A stretch of DNA of 26,488 nucleotides from positions 1 through 26,488 of the IMG/VR virus record IMGVR_UViG_3300042539_001453. One strand, given 5' to 3'. Within the stretch, counting starts at the first letter, position 1, and each line of letters begins with the position of its first letter. Below the pieces are notes generated by a model. The model had not been told where the DNA came from. It searched no databases and was given only the letters and a program-made list of their open reading frames with translations. Both the position numbers and the translations under genes were made by a program. Source of the DNA: a virus. Shown in pieces: positions 930 to 6,047 of this stretch.

Positions 930-937
930 TATTTATA
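930..937 (-). promoter_or_regulatory. T4-type late promoter, exact TATAAATA
   Basis: The minus strand reads TATAAATA at 937 down to 930, an exact match to the T4 late promoter octamer recognised by RNA polymerase carrying gp55, and gp55 is encoded in this window (5151-6047). Transcription would start about 5-7 bases downstream, near 924, giving a leader of about 70 nt before the ATG at 852. The first T overlaps the last base of the hairpin at 937-955. Confidence 0.7.
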
Positions 938-955
938 AACGAACTACGTTCGTTT
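937..955 (-). terminator. 8-bp hairpin closing the structured region, possible terminator
   Basis: AAACGAAC (937-944) and GTTCGTTT (948-955) form a perfect 8-bp stem with a 3-base loop. Minus-strand transcripts from the GIY-YIG gene and the structured region would meet it at their 3' side. The sequence after it on the minus strand is ATAAATAAAC rather than a U-run, so it is not a classical intrinsic terminator and may be an RNA-end or processing signal. It shares 954-955 with an alternative stem (954-960 with 975-981). Confidence 0.4.
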
Positions 956-1393
956 GCTCTTTCATCTTCGATTCAGAGCAACTTTAGTTAGTAAGAGATA
1001 GCTGCGAAGTGTTAACGAAGCAGTGTATTAATATCATTCAGATTAAGCGGTCACACTAAAGCCCGTTAGGGCCAAGAGTGCATCATTCGAGTAGCACAGT
1101 CACATAGCGTTAAAGCATTACAGTGGCGGTTGTCCGGTACCACGAGCTTCGTCTTCACAACGGCAGTTATACTACTCAACGCTATCTGTGTAGTATAACC
1201 TGGTCTTTTTAGACCATCTTTTTGCCTATTCTCTTACTTCAAACAATCAAACCGCGGCGAGTTTGCGATCTTCATCCCTTTCGGGGTAGTGATTGAGTGC
1301 TCACAACGACTAGAGACTTCCATCCCTGCGATCCGAGATCCAGGTTTAGGGCACCCGAGATTAGCTGGTGCTTGCTATTACCGTTTATTAGCC
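937..1393 (-). ncRNA. candidate large structured non-coding RNA, about 450 nt
   Basis: No convincing reading frame covers 853-1393, and 937-1393 is visibly richer in G+C than its AT-rich surroundings. Complementary pairs (plus coordinates): 990-998 with 1230-1238 (9 bp), extended by 999-1001 with 1226-1228 after a bulge; 1015-1021 with 1146-1152; 1022-1026 with 1053-1057 and 1028-1032 with 1042-1046; 1061-1064 with 1069-1072; 1166-1175 with 1190-1199 (10 bp); 1201-1206 with 1211-1216; 1244-1249 with 1290-1295; 1276-1278 with 1283-1285; 1325-1328 with 1341-1344 plus 1330-1333 with 1337-1340; 1351-1355 with 1367-1371. ATAGCGTT (1104-1111) matches AACGCTAT in the 1176-1189 loop, giving a pseudoknot. 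Minus strand is favoured because two short stems then carry GAAA and UAAC loops (GNRA and UMAC types), and flanking genes are minus. GOLLD-like phage RNA is one possibility; I cannot assign a family. The exact ends are unknown. Confidence 0.6.
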
Positions 1394-1822
1394 TTAAATT
1401 TTAGATTTTATATGTGAGCCATGGACGCGGACTTGAATGTGGCCGTTATAGTAATCGTCTGATTCTAATACACGGTATTCAAATTGAAGTTTTGCTTCTA
1501 TATATGAGCACTCCGCTTTTGATTTACAATAGTATAATATTTCTCTACTAAACTTTTCTGTACCTAGATTCTTTACATCTTCGTTTAGTTGTGTGTTTGA
1601 GCCGTAATATGTTTGCCAGTCTGATTCAATTTTGCTTTTAATTCGTTTTCTTTTTTTGTTGCCGTTCTTTAACTTAACAGTCTTGTAGGTCGTTTTACTA
1701 AATTTGCTTAATTTTTTTCCGATATATTTTTTACCCGTGACTACATTGGTTATTACGTATACATAACCTACGCAATCATCGGGTAATTCCGATACAATTT
1801 GTCCTTGATAGGTCCAGGACAT
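1394..1822 (-). CDS. GIY-YIG family endonuclease, Seg-like
   Basis: This 142-residue protein belongs to the GIY-YIG nuclease family of small phage endonucleases. The two hallmark strands are seen as GYVYVITN (residues 19-26) and KKYIGKK (about 31-37). Further along come W-TYYGSN, F-REILYYC, a Glu in EAKLQFEY that fits the catalytic metal-binding Glu position, and a YYNGHI segment as in T4-like phage members. It probably cleaves DNA, as a free-standing homing nuclease or in a repair role; no separate DNA-binding domain is obvious. The gene starts 3 nt after the stop of the Hc1-like gene, with no strong Shine-Dalgarno, so translational coupling is likely. The structured RNA begins immediately after its stop codon, a neighbourhood that could reflect mobility. 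Confidence 0.82.
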   Translation of the reverse strand: MSWTYQGQIVSELPDDCVGYVYVITNVVTGKKYIGKKLSKFSKTTYKTVKLKNGNKKRKRIKSKIESDWQTYYGSNTQLNEDVKNLGTEKFSREILYYCKSKAECSYIEAKLQFEYRVLESDDYYNGHIQVRVHGSHIKSKI

Positions 1823-1825
1823 TGA

Positions 1826-2023
1826 TTATTTTGTTACTTTTGCTTCTTTGCGAGCGTTTTTCTCAGCAGTAATTTCATTACGGCGAGCTTTTACTAGCTT
1901 ACCTAATTCTGCAAGTGCTTTACGAGCACGAGTCCCTGCTGCTGAATTTCCAGAAGTGAATTTTAAATCTTCTTTTAAAAATTCTTCGAATGTTGTTTGC
2001 ATTTGTACAGTTGTATTATTCAT
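1826..2023 (-). CDS. small basic protein resembling histone H1-like protein Hc1
   Basis: This 65-residue protein has an N-terminal FEEFLKEDLKF helix and a C-terminal basic helical half. The segment SGNSAAGTRARKALAELG, followed by KLVKARRNEITAEKNARK, matches the spacing of Arg, Lys and Glu residues in the chlamydial Hc1 histone-like family (GN-AA-R-R, then KL-K--R-E--AEK). By analogy it may bind DNA without sequence specificity, in the host cell or in the capsid. The start is supported by AGGAAGG about 10 nt upstream, and it overlaps the end of the preceding gene by 8 nt. It lies in the recombination-gene operon. The family resemblance is by eye; the gene itself is well supported by packing and ribosome binding site. 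Confidence 0.72.
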   Translation of the reverse strand: MNNTTVQMQTTFEEFLKEDLKFTSGNSAAGTRARKALAELGKLVKARRNEITAEKNARKEAKVTK

Positions 2024-2315
2024 GTTTTCTTGGCCTTCCTCTTTTTAATGGGTTTTCTTTTCTATAAGCACGGTCTGTTCTTTTCTGTGCTAATCTTTCT
2101 TTGGTATTATTTCTATTTTCTCTATAACTAGATAAGCTAGATTCTTGTAATTCTTTATGTAGTATAGCTAATTTTTTTGCAACTTTTCGTAATTCTCTAA
2201 CAGATTCTCTTCCAAAATTTTTCTTATAGATCATATGCTTGTTATGCAATTCGACCATAGTTTCTAAAATTAGATCGTATGTTCTAAGATAACGGTCATA
2301 TTCAACTTTCAACAT
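2016..2315 (-). CDS. hypothetical basic helical protein with C-terminal AT-hook-like motif
   Basis: I do not recognise this 99-residue protein as a named family. Residues 1-65 look helical and charged (MLKVEYDRYLRTYDLILETM, later VRELRKVAKKLAILHKELQ). The C-terminal third is strongly basic, with KERLAQKRTDRAYRKE and the final KRGRPRKHE. RGRPRK matches the core of an AT-hook, a minor-groove DNA-binding motif for AT-rich DNA. The start codon lies 14 nt inside the end of gene 46 and the stop overlaps the start of the Hc1-like gene, so it belongs to the same operon and is probably coupled in translation. A DNA-binding role is inferred from the motif and composition. Confidence 0.72.
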   Translation of the reverse strand: MLKVEYDRYLRTYDLILETMVELHNKHMIYKKNFGRESVRELRKVAKKLAILHKELQESSLSSYRENRNNTKERLAQKRTDRAYRKENPLKRGRPRKHE

Positions 2316-4086
2316 AATCTATATTATTGGAATAATTTGTAAATCCATTTTCTTTTACTACACGAAGAACATTGTTTACTCTACCTATTAATTCATCCTT
2401 ATGACTTATTAAGTATATATTCTTATTCCTCTCCCTGGCCATCTTTTTTAGGACAGCTAGAGCACTTTCTACTCCTGCTGCATCCATTCCTGCATCAACT
2501 AGTTCATCTATAAACAATAAATTAATATTTTGATACAATCCTTCCCAAACATCTCTAAAAGCAAAGCTCATAGACAGGATTAATCTATTCCGTTCACCTC
2601 TTGATAAATTATCAAAATCTAAATCTTGCCCTAGTTGAGTTATTTCAACATTTAGATCGTTTTGAAAAATTACACGATGTGGTAAACCTAACTTGTCGAT
2701 ATAATAGCTTAATCGTTTATTGAGATAAGTTAAGTTTTGATCAATTATTTTCTTACGCACAAAACTATCTTTATTGGTAAGAAGTTTGAGTAAGAACTCT
2801 TGATGGTCCTTTACTTTGGTTAAGGTGTTTATATGATCCCATGTAATTTCTTGAATTGCAGTTTTTTTCAATTCTTCAATTTGTTCATCATATGGATTTT
2901 GATCATTAACTTTATCTTCTAAACTTTTTTCTAATTGTTCTAAATTATTTTTATGTCCTAGTGCTTCTGCTTCTGTTTCGTAAAATGTAGTAGGTTTTTT
3001 ACCTTGCTTACCTATAGATTCTATTTCGTTGTTAATGATGCCTAGATCAGATATTACTTTTTGAGCATATGTATTAGCATCTTGAATATTTTTCTTAACT
3101 TCATCGACCATTTCTTTATGTTTGTGGTCGTGGATTTCTTGTTCACATGCAGGACATTTTTTATCTTTGAGCTTTTCTAGCTCTTTATTATATTTGTCAA
3201 ACGTTTTTCCAGCCTGTGTTACGGCTGTTTCTAACGTAGCTCGTTGTTTTGTTAATGCAGATAATCGTGTATTGTTATCGATCCATTTTTGTAGATCTTT
3301 ATGTGCTTGCAACTCGGCATTAATGTCAACATTTTCTAATTGCATTATAGCTTTTGCAATGTTCTCTATCTCAGTTTCTTTTTTAGTATTCCATGCTGAG
3401 CTTTTAATTTTAAGACTATCGATACTTTTTTGAATATTATCGTTTGCAGTTTTAACACCTTCAATACGATATTGCTCTTGTTGAATAGAATCTTTAGTTT
3501 CTTTAATTGAAGATTTTAATATCTCTGCTTTTTCACTTAGAAGCGTAATTCCTAGCAATTGTTCAATTACTTCTCTTTGATCAGCAGCCTTCATTGCTAA
3601 AAATGGCTCTGTATAAGTGTTAAGAGCCACTAAATGTTTAAACATAGTATGGCTCATTTCGAGCATCTGTTCAATTGCTTTTTGAGTTTCTCTACTATCT
3701 CCTTGACTATCGTCTTCTTCTTCTGTTTTTAACTGTTGGTTATTAACAAACAATTTAAGAACATTAGGTTTACGGCCTCTTTCAATACGATAGTTAATAT
3801 TATTTTTTTGAAATTTTACAGTAACTAACATATGTTTCCCATTAATTTTATTAATGAGATTTTCTTTTTTAATGTTAGTCAATGCTTGTCCATATAACGC
3901 ATAGCTTAAAGCGTTAATGATGGTAGTTTTTCCTGTGCCGTTACGACTACCAGTATCGTCACCACCGAGATCTAAGTTGCTTCCTAATACTAAGGTTAAG
4001 TGTTCTCGATCAAAATCAACTGCTTGAGTTTGATTTCCTACACTCATGAAGTTTTTTACAGTAATGTTTTCAATTAAGAAGCTCAT
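2302..4086 (-). CDS. 46: gp46, recombination endonuclease subunit (Rad50/SbcC-like ATPase)
   Basis: This 594-residue protein is the ATPase half of the phage gp46-gp47 complex, which resects DNA ends to start recombination-dependent replication and repair. Walker A is at residues 46-54 (GSRNGTGKT). A coiled coil of roughly residues 185-405 is interrupted by a zinc-hook CPAC at 311-314. The ABC signature LSRGER is at 494-499, Walker B NLLFIDE at 522-528, and the His-loop ISHKDE at 560-565. All key ATPase motifs are intact, and the length is near that of T4 gp46 (560). The start overlaps the stop of gene 47 in an ATGA arrangement, as expected for a coupled complex. The short coiled coil is normal for phage versions. 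Confidence 0.96.
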   Translation of the reverse strand: MSFLIENITVKNFMSVGNQTQAVDFDREHLTLVLGSNLDLGGDDTGSRNGTGKTTIINALSYALYGQALTNIKKENLINKINGKHMLVTVKFQKNNINYRIERGRKPNVLKLFVNNQQLKTEEEDDSQGDSRETQKAIEQMLEMSHTMFKHLVALNTYTEPFLAMKAADQREVIEQLLGITLLSEKAEILKSSIKETKDSIQQEQYRIEGVKTANDNIQKSIDSLKIKSSAWNTKKETEIENIAKAIMQLENVDINAELQAHKDLQKWIDNNTRLSALTKQRATLETAVTQAGKTFDKYNKELEKLKDKKCPACEQEIHDHKHKEMVDEVKKNIQDANTYAQKVISDLGIINNEIESIGKQGKKPTTFYETEAEALGHKNNLEQLEKSLEDKVNDQNPYDEQIEELKKTAIQEITWDHINTLTKVKDHQEFLLKLLTNKDSFVRKKIIDQNLTYLNKRLSYYIDKLGLPHRVIFQNDLNVEITQLGQDLDFDNLSRGERNRLILSMSFAFRDVWEGLYQNINLLFIDELVDAGMDAAGVESALAVLKKMARERNKNIYLISHKDELIGRVNNVLRVVKENGFTNYSNNIDYVES

Positions 4087-5099
4087 AGATTGTTATAAAT
4101 TTCTAGTAAAATTTTCTTATCAAATTGTTCTGATTCAACAGCTACTAAACTTTCAGTTACAATTTGATCTACACTTTCAAATTTTGTATCAGGATTATCT
4201 TCGACTGAAGTATCGAGACTTACTTTATCTTGAATCAAGCTAATTTCTCGAATGTCATATTCGTTTGTAAATGTTTCTTTAATAAAATTTGCTTCTTCAA
4301 AAGTAATATCAATATCGAGATTTACTTTTAAGTACATCTTACTTTTCATAATTTGATCTTTTTGATCAAGTAGTTCACTTAATTTAACATGTCTAAATTT
4401 TGGACAGTTATCCCAATTGATAAATTGAGGAGTTCCGCCCCATTCTAAAATCATCATTCCTCGTTCATCATCCCAGGTATCACTGAAGTTATGAGGAAAT
4501 GCGTTACCTATATACCAAATTTTACCTCTGTTTTGGCGTTTATGGAAATGCCCACTGAATACATATTCTTGATGTTTAAAATGTTCTGGTTGTAGTTCAC
4601 CGTGATCAGGCATTTGAACCATAGCGTTCATATAAAACAATGGTAATTCAAAATGACCAAACATATATCGGCTCTTAACTTTGCTGATATTTTTCCATTC
4701 GTCACCTACCAACCAAGGTACTAAGGTTACATCACCTATGGTGCATACATCTTCGACCACAGTGACGCCTGGAATATGTCGCCCGAATGCAGAACTATGA
4801 ATATCACGTTTATCTTTATAGAACAAATCGTGATTTCCTGGAAACCAAAAAAACTGATCAAAGGCTGCGCCGAGTTTTTCTAAACAACGTATGCTAGTAT
4901 CTAAGGTTGCTAAATTTATGTTATTTCTATTGTTATGCCAGTCTCCCATAAAGATACCAATATCGCAATCTTGTAATTGTGATTGTCTAATAAACCAGTC
5001 AACAAACTCTTCGCAATCTTTATTATGAATACTACTATTAGACTTAAGGCCGATATGTAAATCAGTAAATGCTGCACATTTTTTAAATAATTGTTTCAT
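4083..5099 (-). CDS. 47: gp47, recombination endonuclease subunit (Mre11/SbcD-like nuclease)
   Basis: This 338-residue metallophosphoesterase is the nuclease partner of gp46. The motifs appear in order: DLHIG (residues 13-17), GDWH (52-55), GNHD (88-91), a GHFE segment (148-151) and SGHFHKRQ (182-189), which supply the metal ligands and catalytic His residues of the Mre11 family. The C-terminal part (about 225-338) is the region expected to contact the base of the gp46 coiled coil. It lies 51 nt downstream of gene 55; the ribosome binding site is weak (GGAT close to the ATG), so expression may depend on read-through from gene 55. The length matches T4 gp47 (339). Confidence 0.96.
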   Translation of the reverse strand: MKQLFKKCAAFTDLHIGLKSNSSIHNKDCEEFVDWFIRQSQLQDCDIGIFMGDWHNNRNNINLATLDTSIRCLEKLGAAFDQFFWFPGNHDLFYKDKRDIHSSAFGRHIPGVTVVEDVCTIGDVTLVPWLVGDEWKNISKVKSRYMFGHFELPLFYMNAMVQMPDHGELQPEHFKHQEYVFSGHFHKRQNRGKIWYIGNAFPHNFSDTWDDERGMMILEWGGTPQFINWDNCPKFRHVKLSELLDQKDQIMKSKMYLKVNLDIDITFEEANFIKETFTNEYDIREISLIQDKVSLDTSVEDNPDTKFESVDQIVTESLVAVESEQFDKKILLEIYNNL

Positions 5100-5150: not shown

Positions 5151-6047
5151 TCAAACTTCTTGGTCATCGTCTTCAACCGTTTCTTCGCTCTTAGGCATTC
5201 TAAAGTTTTTATAAAGTTCTGCTTGACGTGCAGTTTCTTCTGCATATTCCTGTTGATATTGTCTAGTTAAGCTAGGTGTTAGACCTGCTTCTTCTAACAT
5301 ATCGTCTCGAATATTTTGATTTTTCTTTTCGATATTTAAAATTCTAGTAAAGCTATTAGTGACTGCTGCGGTGTAATATGCAAATGGATTTTCTGATTTT
5401 GATTCGTCGAATTGTAATCCAATTTGACTAAGTTGAAGTATTGCTTGCCCCTTCATCTCTTCAATATAGGTGTATCCTCTCCAATTTGCTCGTTGTGCAT
5501 ATCTTTCGGATAATTTTAAAAACATGCGTCCTAGTTCTTCAGTAATTCTACCGTGGTCTTTGGAAAATTTACCTTTTTCGATAGAGCCTTTCCAGTGACT
5601 TTTACCTACACAAACTAATTCTTCGTCTTCAAATTTCCAATGTTGGAATGGAGGAAAATTTACTTTATCATGACTATCTGCTGTAGTTTTTGTGGTCTTT
5701 TTTCTTCCTGGTGCTAGCGGAATATGCTCAAATGTCATTATTCTAAATACTAGATCAGTTTTTTCTATAGTTTTATAATCTGGAGTAACTTCTGCTAGTT
5801 TTATTTTCTTATTTCCTGCGTTTCTTTCAGCAGTAAATGCCTGTAACCCTATTCTTTTTGCTCTATTTCGTTTAGCTTCTGCAATAGTTCTAATATTAAT
5901 TTTTTCTAAACTAGTTAAAATTATGTCATGTTGACTATATTCTTTTTTTGTAAAAGTTGAAAAACTGCATTTACTTTTATGTATTTCGGACAGTAAATCT
6001 CTATTATTTAAATATTTTACTTTTCGTATTGATGGCAAGGCTGTCAT
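5151..6047 (-). CDS. 55: gp55, late-transcription sigma factor with long N-terminal extension
   Basis: This protein directs host RNA polymerase core to phage late promoters. The sigma-like region is residues about 168-262: ITEELGRMFLKLSERYAQRANW, then YTYIEEMKGQAILQLSQIG, FDESKSENPFAYYTAAVTNS and FTRILNIEKKNQNIRDD, which parallels the region-2-like part of T4 gp55. The protein is 298 residues against 185 in T4. The extra N-terminal portion contains NIRTIAEAKRNRAKR and a block with FRIMTFEHIPLAPGRKK and NFPPFQHWKF. The C-terminus is acidic (SEETVEDDDQEV), where T4 gp55 has its clamp-binding tail; a hydrophobic clamp-binding motif is not obvious here. AAAGGA at 6060-6065 supports the start. The gene heads the leftward operon under the strong promoter at 6073-6101. 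Confidence 0.9.
   Translation of the reverse strand: MTALPSIRKVKYLNNRDLLSEIHKSKCSFSTFTKKEYSQHDIILTSLEKINIRTIAEAKRNRAKRIGLQAFTAERNAGNKKIKLAEVTPDYKTIEKTDLVFRIMTFEHIPLAPGRKKTTKTTADSHDKVNFPPFQHWKFEDEELVCVGKSHWKGSIEKGKFSKDHGRITEELGRMFLKLSERYAQRANWRGYTYIEEMKGQAILQLSQIGLQFDESKSENPFAYYTAAVTNSFTRILNIEKKNQNIRDDMLEEAGLTPSLTRQYQQEYAEETARQAELYKNFRMPKSEETVEDDDQEV

Follow-up and report, generated by a model that had tools for sequence, protein, structure and literature searches.

The window, by which we mean the whole 26,488-nt stretch of viral DNA analysed here, carries on its minus strand genes for a gp55-like late sigma factor and for gp47- and gp46-like recombination subunits, followed by small ORFs on the same strand and by a GIY-YIG endonuclease gene directly upstream of a gap (Table 1). 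The gap, at 937-1393, contains no long ORF, and its GC content is 45.1%, compared with 32.7% for the window and 39.1% and 31.5% for the flanks, so that its initial annotation as a GC-rich non-coding stretch is borne out. Within the gp46-nuclease operon we also observed a 65-aa protein (1826-2023, minus strand) with a match to histone H1-like Hc1 (PF07432).

Table 1. Coordinates of the RNA gene, its structural elements and the neighbouring genes in the window
Feature	Position	Strand	Evidence
T4-late-promoter-like TATAAATA, right after the terminal hairpin, facing ORF 85-852	930..937	-	sequence
Whole structured RNA gene	937..1393, read 1393 -> 937	-	full-length homology in 268 IMG/VR loci; covariation
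P18, terminal 8-bp hairpin	937..955	-	six covarying pairs, 949-954/938-943
P17, GAGCGnnAGCG-type hairpin	957..978	-	978/957 covary; same element in island RNAs
Core region, covariance model R1	1030..1171	-	alignment A1; window scores 125.7 bits
Unit 2, AUCU + same 7-mer GAAUGAU	1033..1043 (7-mer 1033-1039)	-	identity-coupled with unit 1
P15, GC hairpin separating the two units	1056..1076	-	1073/1059 covary
Unit 1, ACUC + 7-mer GAAUGAU	1082..1092 (7-mer 1082-1088)	-	identity-coupled with unit 2
Core P11 (1157-1161/1129-1133), P12 (1140-1143/1123-1126), P13 (1146-1149/1113-1116)	1113..1161	-	covarying pairs 1159/1131, 1142/1124, 1149/1113, 1148/1114
P10, long hairpin	1167..1198	-	1187/1178 covary
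5' domain, Rfam RF01718 Polynucleobacter-1	1241..1376	-	cmscan 113.6 bits (gathering 37), model 1-141 complete
P1 (1380-1384 pairs with 1306-1310)	1306..1384	-	covarying pair 1382/1308
GIY-YIG endonuclease gene, immediately 5' of the RNA	1394..1822	-	PF19835 SegE_GIY-YIG, E 1.9e-32; phrog_447
T4 gp46-like recombination subunit	2302..4086	-	phrog_77
T4 gp47-like subunit	4083..5099	-	phrog_100
T4 gp55-like late sigma factor	5151..6047	-	phrog_12791

A large, modular minus-strand RNA

The initial annotation had read the gap as a folded RNA and had proposed a search against Rfam. In that search, RF01718 was the sole RNA called by Rfam 15 across the whole window, as a full-length, high-scoring match on the minus strand, and the remaining ~300 nt, to 937, matched no Rfam 15 family at E <= 1. 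The suggestion of a new family therefore holds only in part, as 136 nt are RF01718. Because the Rfam match and all homologues lie on the minus strand, the RNA is assigned to that strand; its 5' end is approximate, as the first conserved helix strand begins near 1384. The folding energy of the gap is modestly better than that of dinucleotide-shuffled sequence on both strands (minus, z -2.1, 3 of 100 shuffles equally good; plus, z -2.8, 0 of 100), and the folded state is further upheld by 268 homologous loci and by covariation in about a dozen helices.

A pattern built from the 5' domain retrieved 67 IMG/VR contigs, among which similarity passes the end of RF01718 and reaches the terminal 8-bp hairpin ~415 nt past the CCCTAAACC motif. 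A second pattern, from the part that lacks an Rfam family, retrieved at least 120 contigs, and an nhmmer profile of the same part found 268 IMG/VR loci with 214 distinct cores; the 3' part, which bears no family name, thus occurs at least as widely as the named 5' part. At 27 loci another, unnamed 5' domain precedes the same core, which indicates that the RNA is modular, with the R1 core common to RNAs that have different 5' domains. The alternative 5' domain is ~250 nt long and highly conserved (L137, L140, L161, L089, L113 and 22 others), has no Rfam match and is a candidate RNA family of its own. Among 50,697 cultured-phage records, no homologue of the RNA was found at blastn sensitivity.

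The habitat published for RF01718, 'Burkholderiales, fresh water/estuary' (Weinberg et al. 2010, PMC2864571), fits the window's copy. However, RF01718 comprises 141 positions, whereas homology and covariation here continue to 937 and make the RNA about three times as long; unlike RF01718 as defined, the RNA has a conserved 3' part that is also joined to other 5' domains. Only one third of the ~450-nt RNA was previously known, and the phage location, the nuclease linkage and the twin segments considered below are absent from the accessible part of the family description (PMC2864571). Comparative evidence identifies the product of the gap as a free-standing, structured non-coding RNA that is ~440-460 nt long, is encoded on the minus strand and has RF01718 as its 5' domain; a functional structured RNA of this extent is almost certain.

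Helices, pseudoknots and covariation

For the structure, 150 dereplicated sequences were aligned and folded jointly, and all column pairs were compared with a null model in which substitutions are relocated along the tree, using our own script of the R-scape idea rather than R-scape itself. Forty column pairs were significant at E <= 0.05 in these 150 sequences, mostly base pairs with compensatory changes that fall in P1-P5, P7, P9, P10, P12, P13, P15, P17, the terminal hairpin and two crossing interactions. This covariation supports about a dozen helices, two pseudoknots included. In the first pseudoknot, the loop of P10 (~1180-1184) pairs with ~1105-1109, and 1182/1107 covary; the second is formed by P11-P13 around GGUACCGG..ACCGCC, where P11 (1159/1131) crosses through the loop of P12. 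In some relatives (for example, L009, L011 and L013) the GIY-YIG gene reaches with its last codons or its stop into the 5' strand of P1, and P18 is the probable 3' end or terminator, with a weak U tract.

The complementary segments quoted in the initial annotation are present in the sequence as written; the long-range helices that it listed mostly differ from the conserved ones. The proposed 12-bp closing helix (990-1001/1226-1238) is confined to this sequence, with standard pairs in 31% of aligned cells, few sequences being aligned there, and the 7-bp helix (1015-1021/1146-1152) is 64% paired and competes with the covarying P13; both look like chance matches. The outer stem of the hairpin at 1022-1057 is 58% paired and lacks significant covariation. 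In contrast, the GC stem near 1061-1072 is recovered as P15, and the several stems placed in 1244-1371 are those of RF01718.

Two further observations concern possible tertiary structure. P3 is flanked, at 1325-1350 (minus strand) and in relatives, by CCUAAA and GAUGG, which together resemble the 11-nt receptor of GNRA tetraloops; the P6 loop is often GAAA, and a tertiary contact between the two is possible, judged from the motifs. For window positions 1059 and 1156 (columns 254/353), there is a significant association between like bases (AA, UU, GG); as column 353 pairs with 339, a base triple is possible.

GOLLD assembles into a homo-14-mer nanocage, and an RNA of the GOLLD or ROOL kind would act here as a homo-oligomeric ornate RNA that provides a cage or scaffold during lysis. 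The phage habitat, the pseudoknots and the joining of a conserved 3' part to alternative 5' parts favour such a reading, and this layout resembles that of GOLLD, which was described as having a universally conserved 3' region and a less conserved 5' region (PMC12286853). However, GOLLD measures 800 nt and occurs in tRNA islands, compared with ~450 nt beside gp46 and a nuclease here; the RNA has about half the GOLLD/ROOL length. There are no adjacent tRNAs, none being found in the window itself or at the seven related loci, and cmscan of 850-1450 at E <= 10 gave no match to GOLLD or ROOL. We consider this reading unlikely, and of the GOLLD membership raised in the initial annotation only the likeness of layout is left. 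ROOL and OLE, too, are large ornate RNAs of bacteria or phages whose function is unsettled, but the RNA described here has no Rfam match to either and a different context. Other known classes were also rejected: a group I intron, as there is no Rfam intron match at E <= 10 and the RNA splits no gene and lies at the end of an operon; a HEARO/OMEGA-type guide RNA, as there is no Rfam HEARO match and the nuclease is of the GIY-YIG or PD-(D/E)XK type; and tRNA or tmRNA, which gave no matches.

Twin 7-nt segments

Two units ~50 nt apart flank the hairpin P15, and each contains a copy of the same 7-mer. The two copies agree in 246 of 247 phage loci, in 12 variants; a relaxed search added six phage loci, all agreeing (252 of 253), and 195 of 196 agree when distinct cores are counted. 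Four positions of the 7-mer are fully coupled; their histories on the tree comprise 32, 10, 12 and 8 changes, and each of these 62 struck both copies on the same branch. The bases just outside the 7-mers constantly differ between the copies, which argues against simple copying of a longer tract. The island RNAs described below follow the same rule with other sequences (AGCGAAA, AGAGAAA, GGAGAAA, AACAAAA and ATCAAAA), and L319 and L321 have identical 9-10-mers. Mismatched pairs are rare and were seen in L061 and, among the islands, in L293, L301 and L070.

A folding program paired the units with each other (columns 320-325/369-374). This was rejected, because the C/A variants at the second position break the pairing and the coupled columns 326/377 and 328/379 fall outside the proposed helix. 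Gene conversion as the sole cause is less likely, given that the flanks differ one base away and that mismatched pairs occur in the islands. Within the RNA, no other column follows the changes of the 7-mer, as a partner in cis would. In neighbouring phage DNA, the complement of the 7-mer shows no enrichment (107 observed, 101 expected), and the 7-mer itself on the same strand gives nothing clear beyond the RNA (152 observed, 128 expected). The twin 7-mers are likely to be the working surface of the RNA, as far as their pattern of change reveals it. The coupling suggests that, within one RNA, both segments would touch a common partner, or else the position of the other segment, in which case the 7-mer could drift in sequence only when both copies drift together. 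That the twin 7-mers may bind one shared partner is put forward tentatively.

Phage operons and bacterial islands

The pairing of a large structured RNA with a GIY-YIG gene, on which the initial annotation had remarked, receives strong support from gene order, which is kept in 250 of 268 loci. Most of the 18 others are contig ends, as inspection of their coordinates showed; in three that have long upstream DNA and no GIY-YIG gene, a PDDEXK_15 nuclease gene lies upstream instead, adjoining the RNA in L035 and L102 and farther off in L160, and this nuclease occurs in 0 of the 250 loci with a GIY-YIG gene. Conversely, the RNA core lies downstream in 74 of 79 loci found by the GIY-YIG protein; of the remaining five, L257 has a gene inserted ahead of the RNA, and four are contigs that stop just past the nuclease gene. 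Where the upstream DNA exceeds 3.5 kb, it includes the gene for gp46 in 153 of 159 loci. The interval between nuclease and RNA is an insertion hotspot with varied cargo (L083, L146, L189, L225, L257 and others), by eye SGNH-hydrolase-like, methyltransferase-like and other proteins.

These data strongly indicate that the RNA closes a T4-like gp47-gp46-nuclease operon. The next downstream gene is on the minus strand in 113 loci and on the plus strand in 99, which argues against the RNA being a leader of that gene. A TAwAAATA motif lies at most 200 nt downstream in 42 of 240 loci, compared with 0.03 expected per 200 nt, and no conserved or late promoter was seen ahead of the RNA in phages. Because the 5' helix lies on or after the nuclease stop, no conserved promoter precedes it and a hairpin closes the RNA, we infer that the phage RNA is probably the 3' end of the operon transcript, made by read-through and processing.

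Relatives of the RNA occur in bacterial chromosomes. Two genome-contig matches are betaproteobacterial MAG contigs, and RF01718 is found in 20 of 186 genomes of the genus of one contig and in 1 of 301 genomes of the wider family of the other; the island-bearing genus is likely to be Polynucleobacter, going by the published habitat of RF01718. The three islands that were opened (L307-L309) carry a tyrosine integrase (next to tRNA-Phe in one of them), candidate defence genes (type II restriction-modification or others), a short tyrosine recombinase, a DUF6641 gene and a clamp-loader-like AAA ATPase of ~220-240 aa. Being integrative elements that combine an integrase with defence cargo and phage-like genes, they have the make-up of a satellite. 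In most RNA-bearing genomes the AAA gene is ~2.4-4.2 kb from the RNA; in L309 its product best matches the clamp loader phrog_168 (E 3e-21), over the first two thirds only, and an ATPase lacking the C-terminal part is a possible decoy for the phage clamp loader. Upstream of the island RNA, all 20 of 20 loci have TATAAATA or CTAAATA, which is rare elsewhere in the islands, so that relatives of the RNA with a late-promoter-like start are strongly indicated for mobile islands. Neither the island core motif in viral contigs nor the island RNA in phages and plasmids was found. In the sibling islands L315, L316 and L323, a different RNA body occupies the same slot together with a small ORF, and the late-promoter-like motif and the same two 3' hairpins are kept.

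In T4, TATAAATA is the late promoter, which gp55 recognises together with the sliding clamp (PMC1524935). Along with the clamp-loader-like gene, the promoter-like motif suggests that the islands respond to T4-like phages, which they may parasitise, and that the island version of the RNA would be driven by a late-type promoter readable by a gp55-type sigma factor of the phage. With integrases, an insertion at tRNA-Phe and defence cargo, the islands resemble PICI, PLE and other tRNA-integrated elements, although their status as satellites is deduced from the late-promoter-like motif and the clamp-loader-like gene. We put at about even the chance that the island copy is a feature of a satellite or parasite and makes use of phage late transcription.

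The islands also bear on three other readings. If the GIY-YIG nuclease or its PD-(D/E)XK substitute formed a ribonucleoprotein with the RNA, the twin 7-mers would be its recognition segments; almost every phage locus has a nuclease gene ahead of the RNA, in many cases overlapping the 5' helix, and the type of nuclease can be swapped. However, the island RNAs have twin segments without a GIY-YIG gene, in about 15 phage loci the nuclease and the RNA are separated by another gene, and recombination or repair accounts for the presence of a nuclease next to gp46/47. Moreover, relatives of the GIY-YIG protein occur in 471 cultured-phage records (at most 50% identical), and in the annotated loci that were opened the next genes follow without an RNA-sized gap, nor did model R1 find the RNA there. 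A nuclease ribonucleoprotein is thus very unlikely.

Overlap and realignment sites typically show repeats that are free in sequence but bound in identity, as the twin segments are. The RNA gene could accordingly mark a strand-transfer element, an RNA-primed origin or a recombination or realignment site, whose copies must match since one strand moves between them and which the islands share for replication by phage enzymes. The RNA gene adjoins recombination genes, and the islands have a clamp-loader-like protein and tyrosine recombinases; however, the elaborate covariation reflects selection on the RNA, and the rare mismatched pairs do not fit. We regard strand transfer as highly improbable.

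The RNA might also be a local 3' element of the gp46-nuclease mRNA, a stabiliser or terminator without function in trans, as it always lies at the operon end, followed by a hairpin and by downstream genes on either strand. In contrast to this expectation, it is far more elaborate than required, it is retained despite replacement of the upstream gene or insertion of another, and in the islands it stands alone behind its own promoter-like motif. A purely local element is therefore improbable, and action of the RNA in trans is probable.

Taken as a whole, the explanation towards which we lean slightly is an infection-phase non-coding RNA of T4-like phages and satellite-like islands, which would work as RNA during infection by T4-like phages and whose twin segments would touch a shared partner. 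It is conceivable, though on balance doubtful, that the paired, hypervariable yet identical segments of 7-10 nt represent a new RNA architecture, serving as interchangeable address labels shared by T4-like phages and chromosomal satellites that read phage late-transcription signals.

In summary, a little-studied 141-nt Rfam motif becomes a defined phage RNA of ~450 nt with hundreds of homologues, which is large, covarying and modular, is encoded on the minus strand and contains RF01718. Judged by its homologues, this RNA is common to many T4-like freshwater phages and to mobile islands in bacterial chromosomes, and it connects lytic phages with these islands. In addition, the twin segments raise the testable question of how identity is enforced while the sequence stays free, the answer to which may be a new kind of recognition in which the RNA is bivalent, or a step of phage replication that involves strand transfer.
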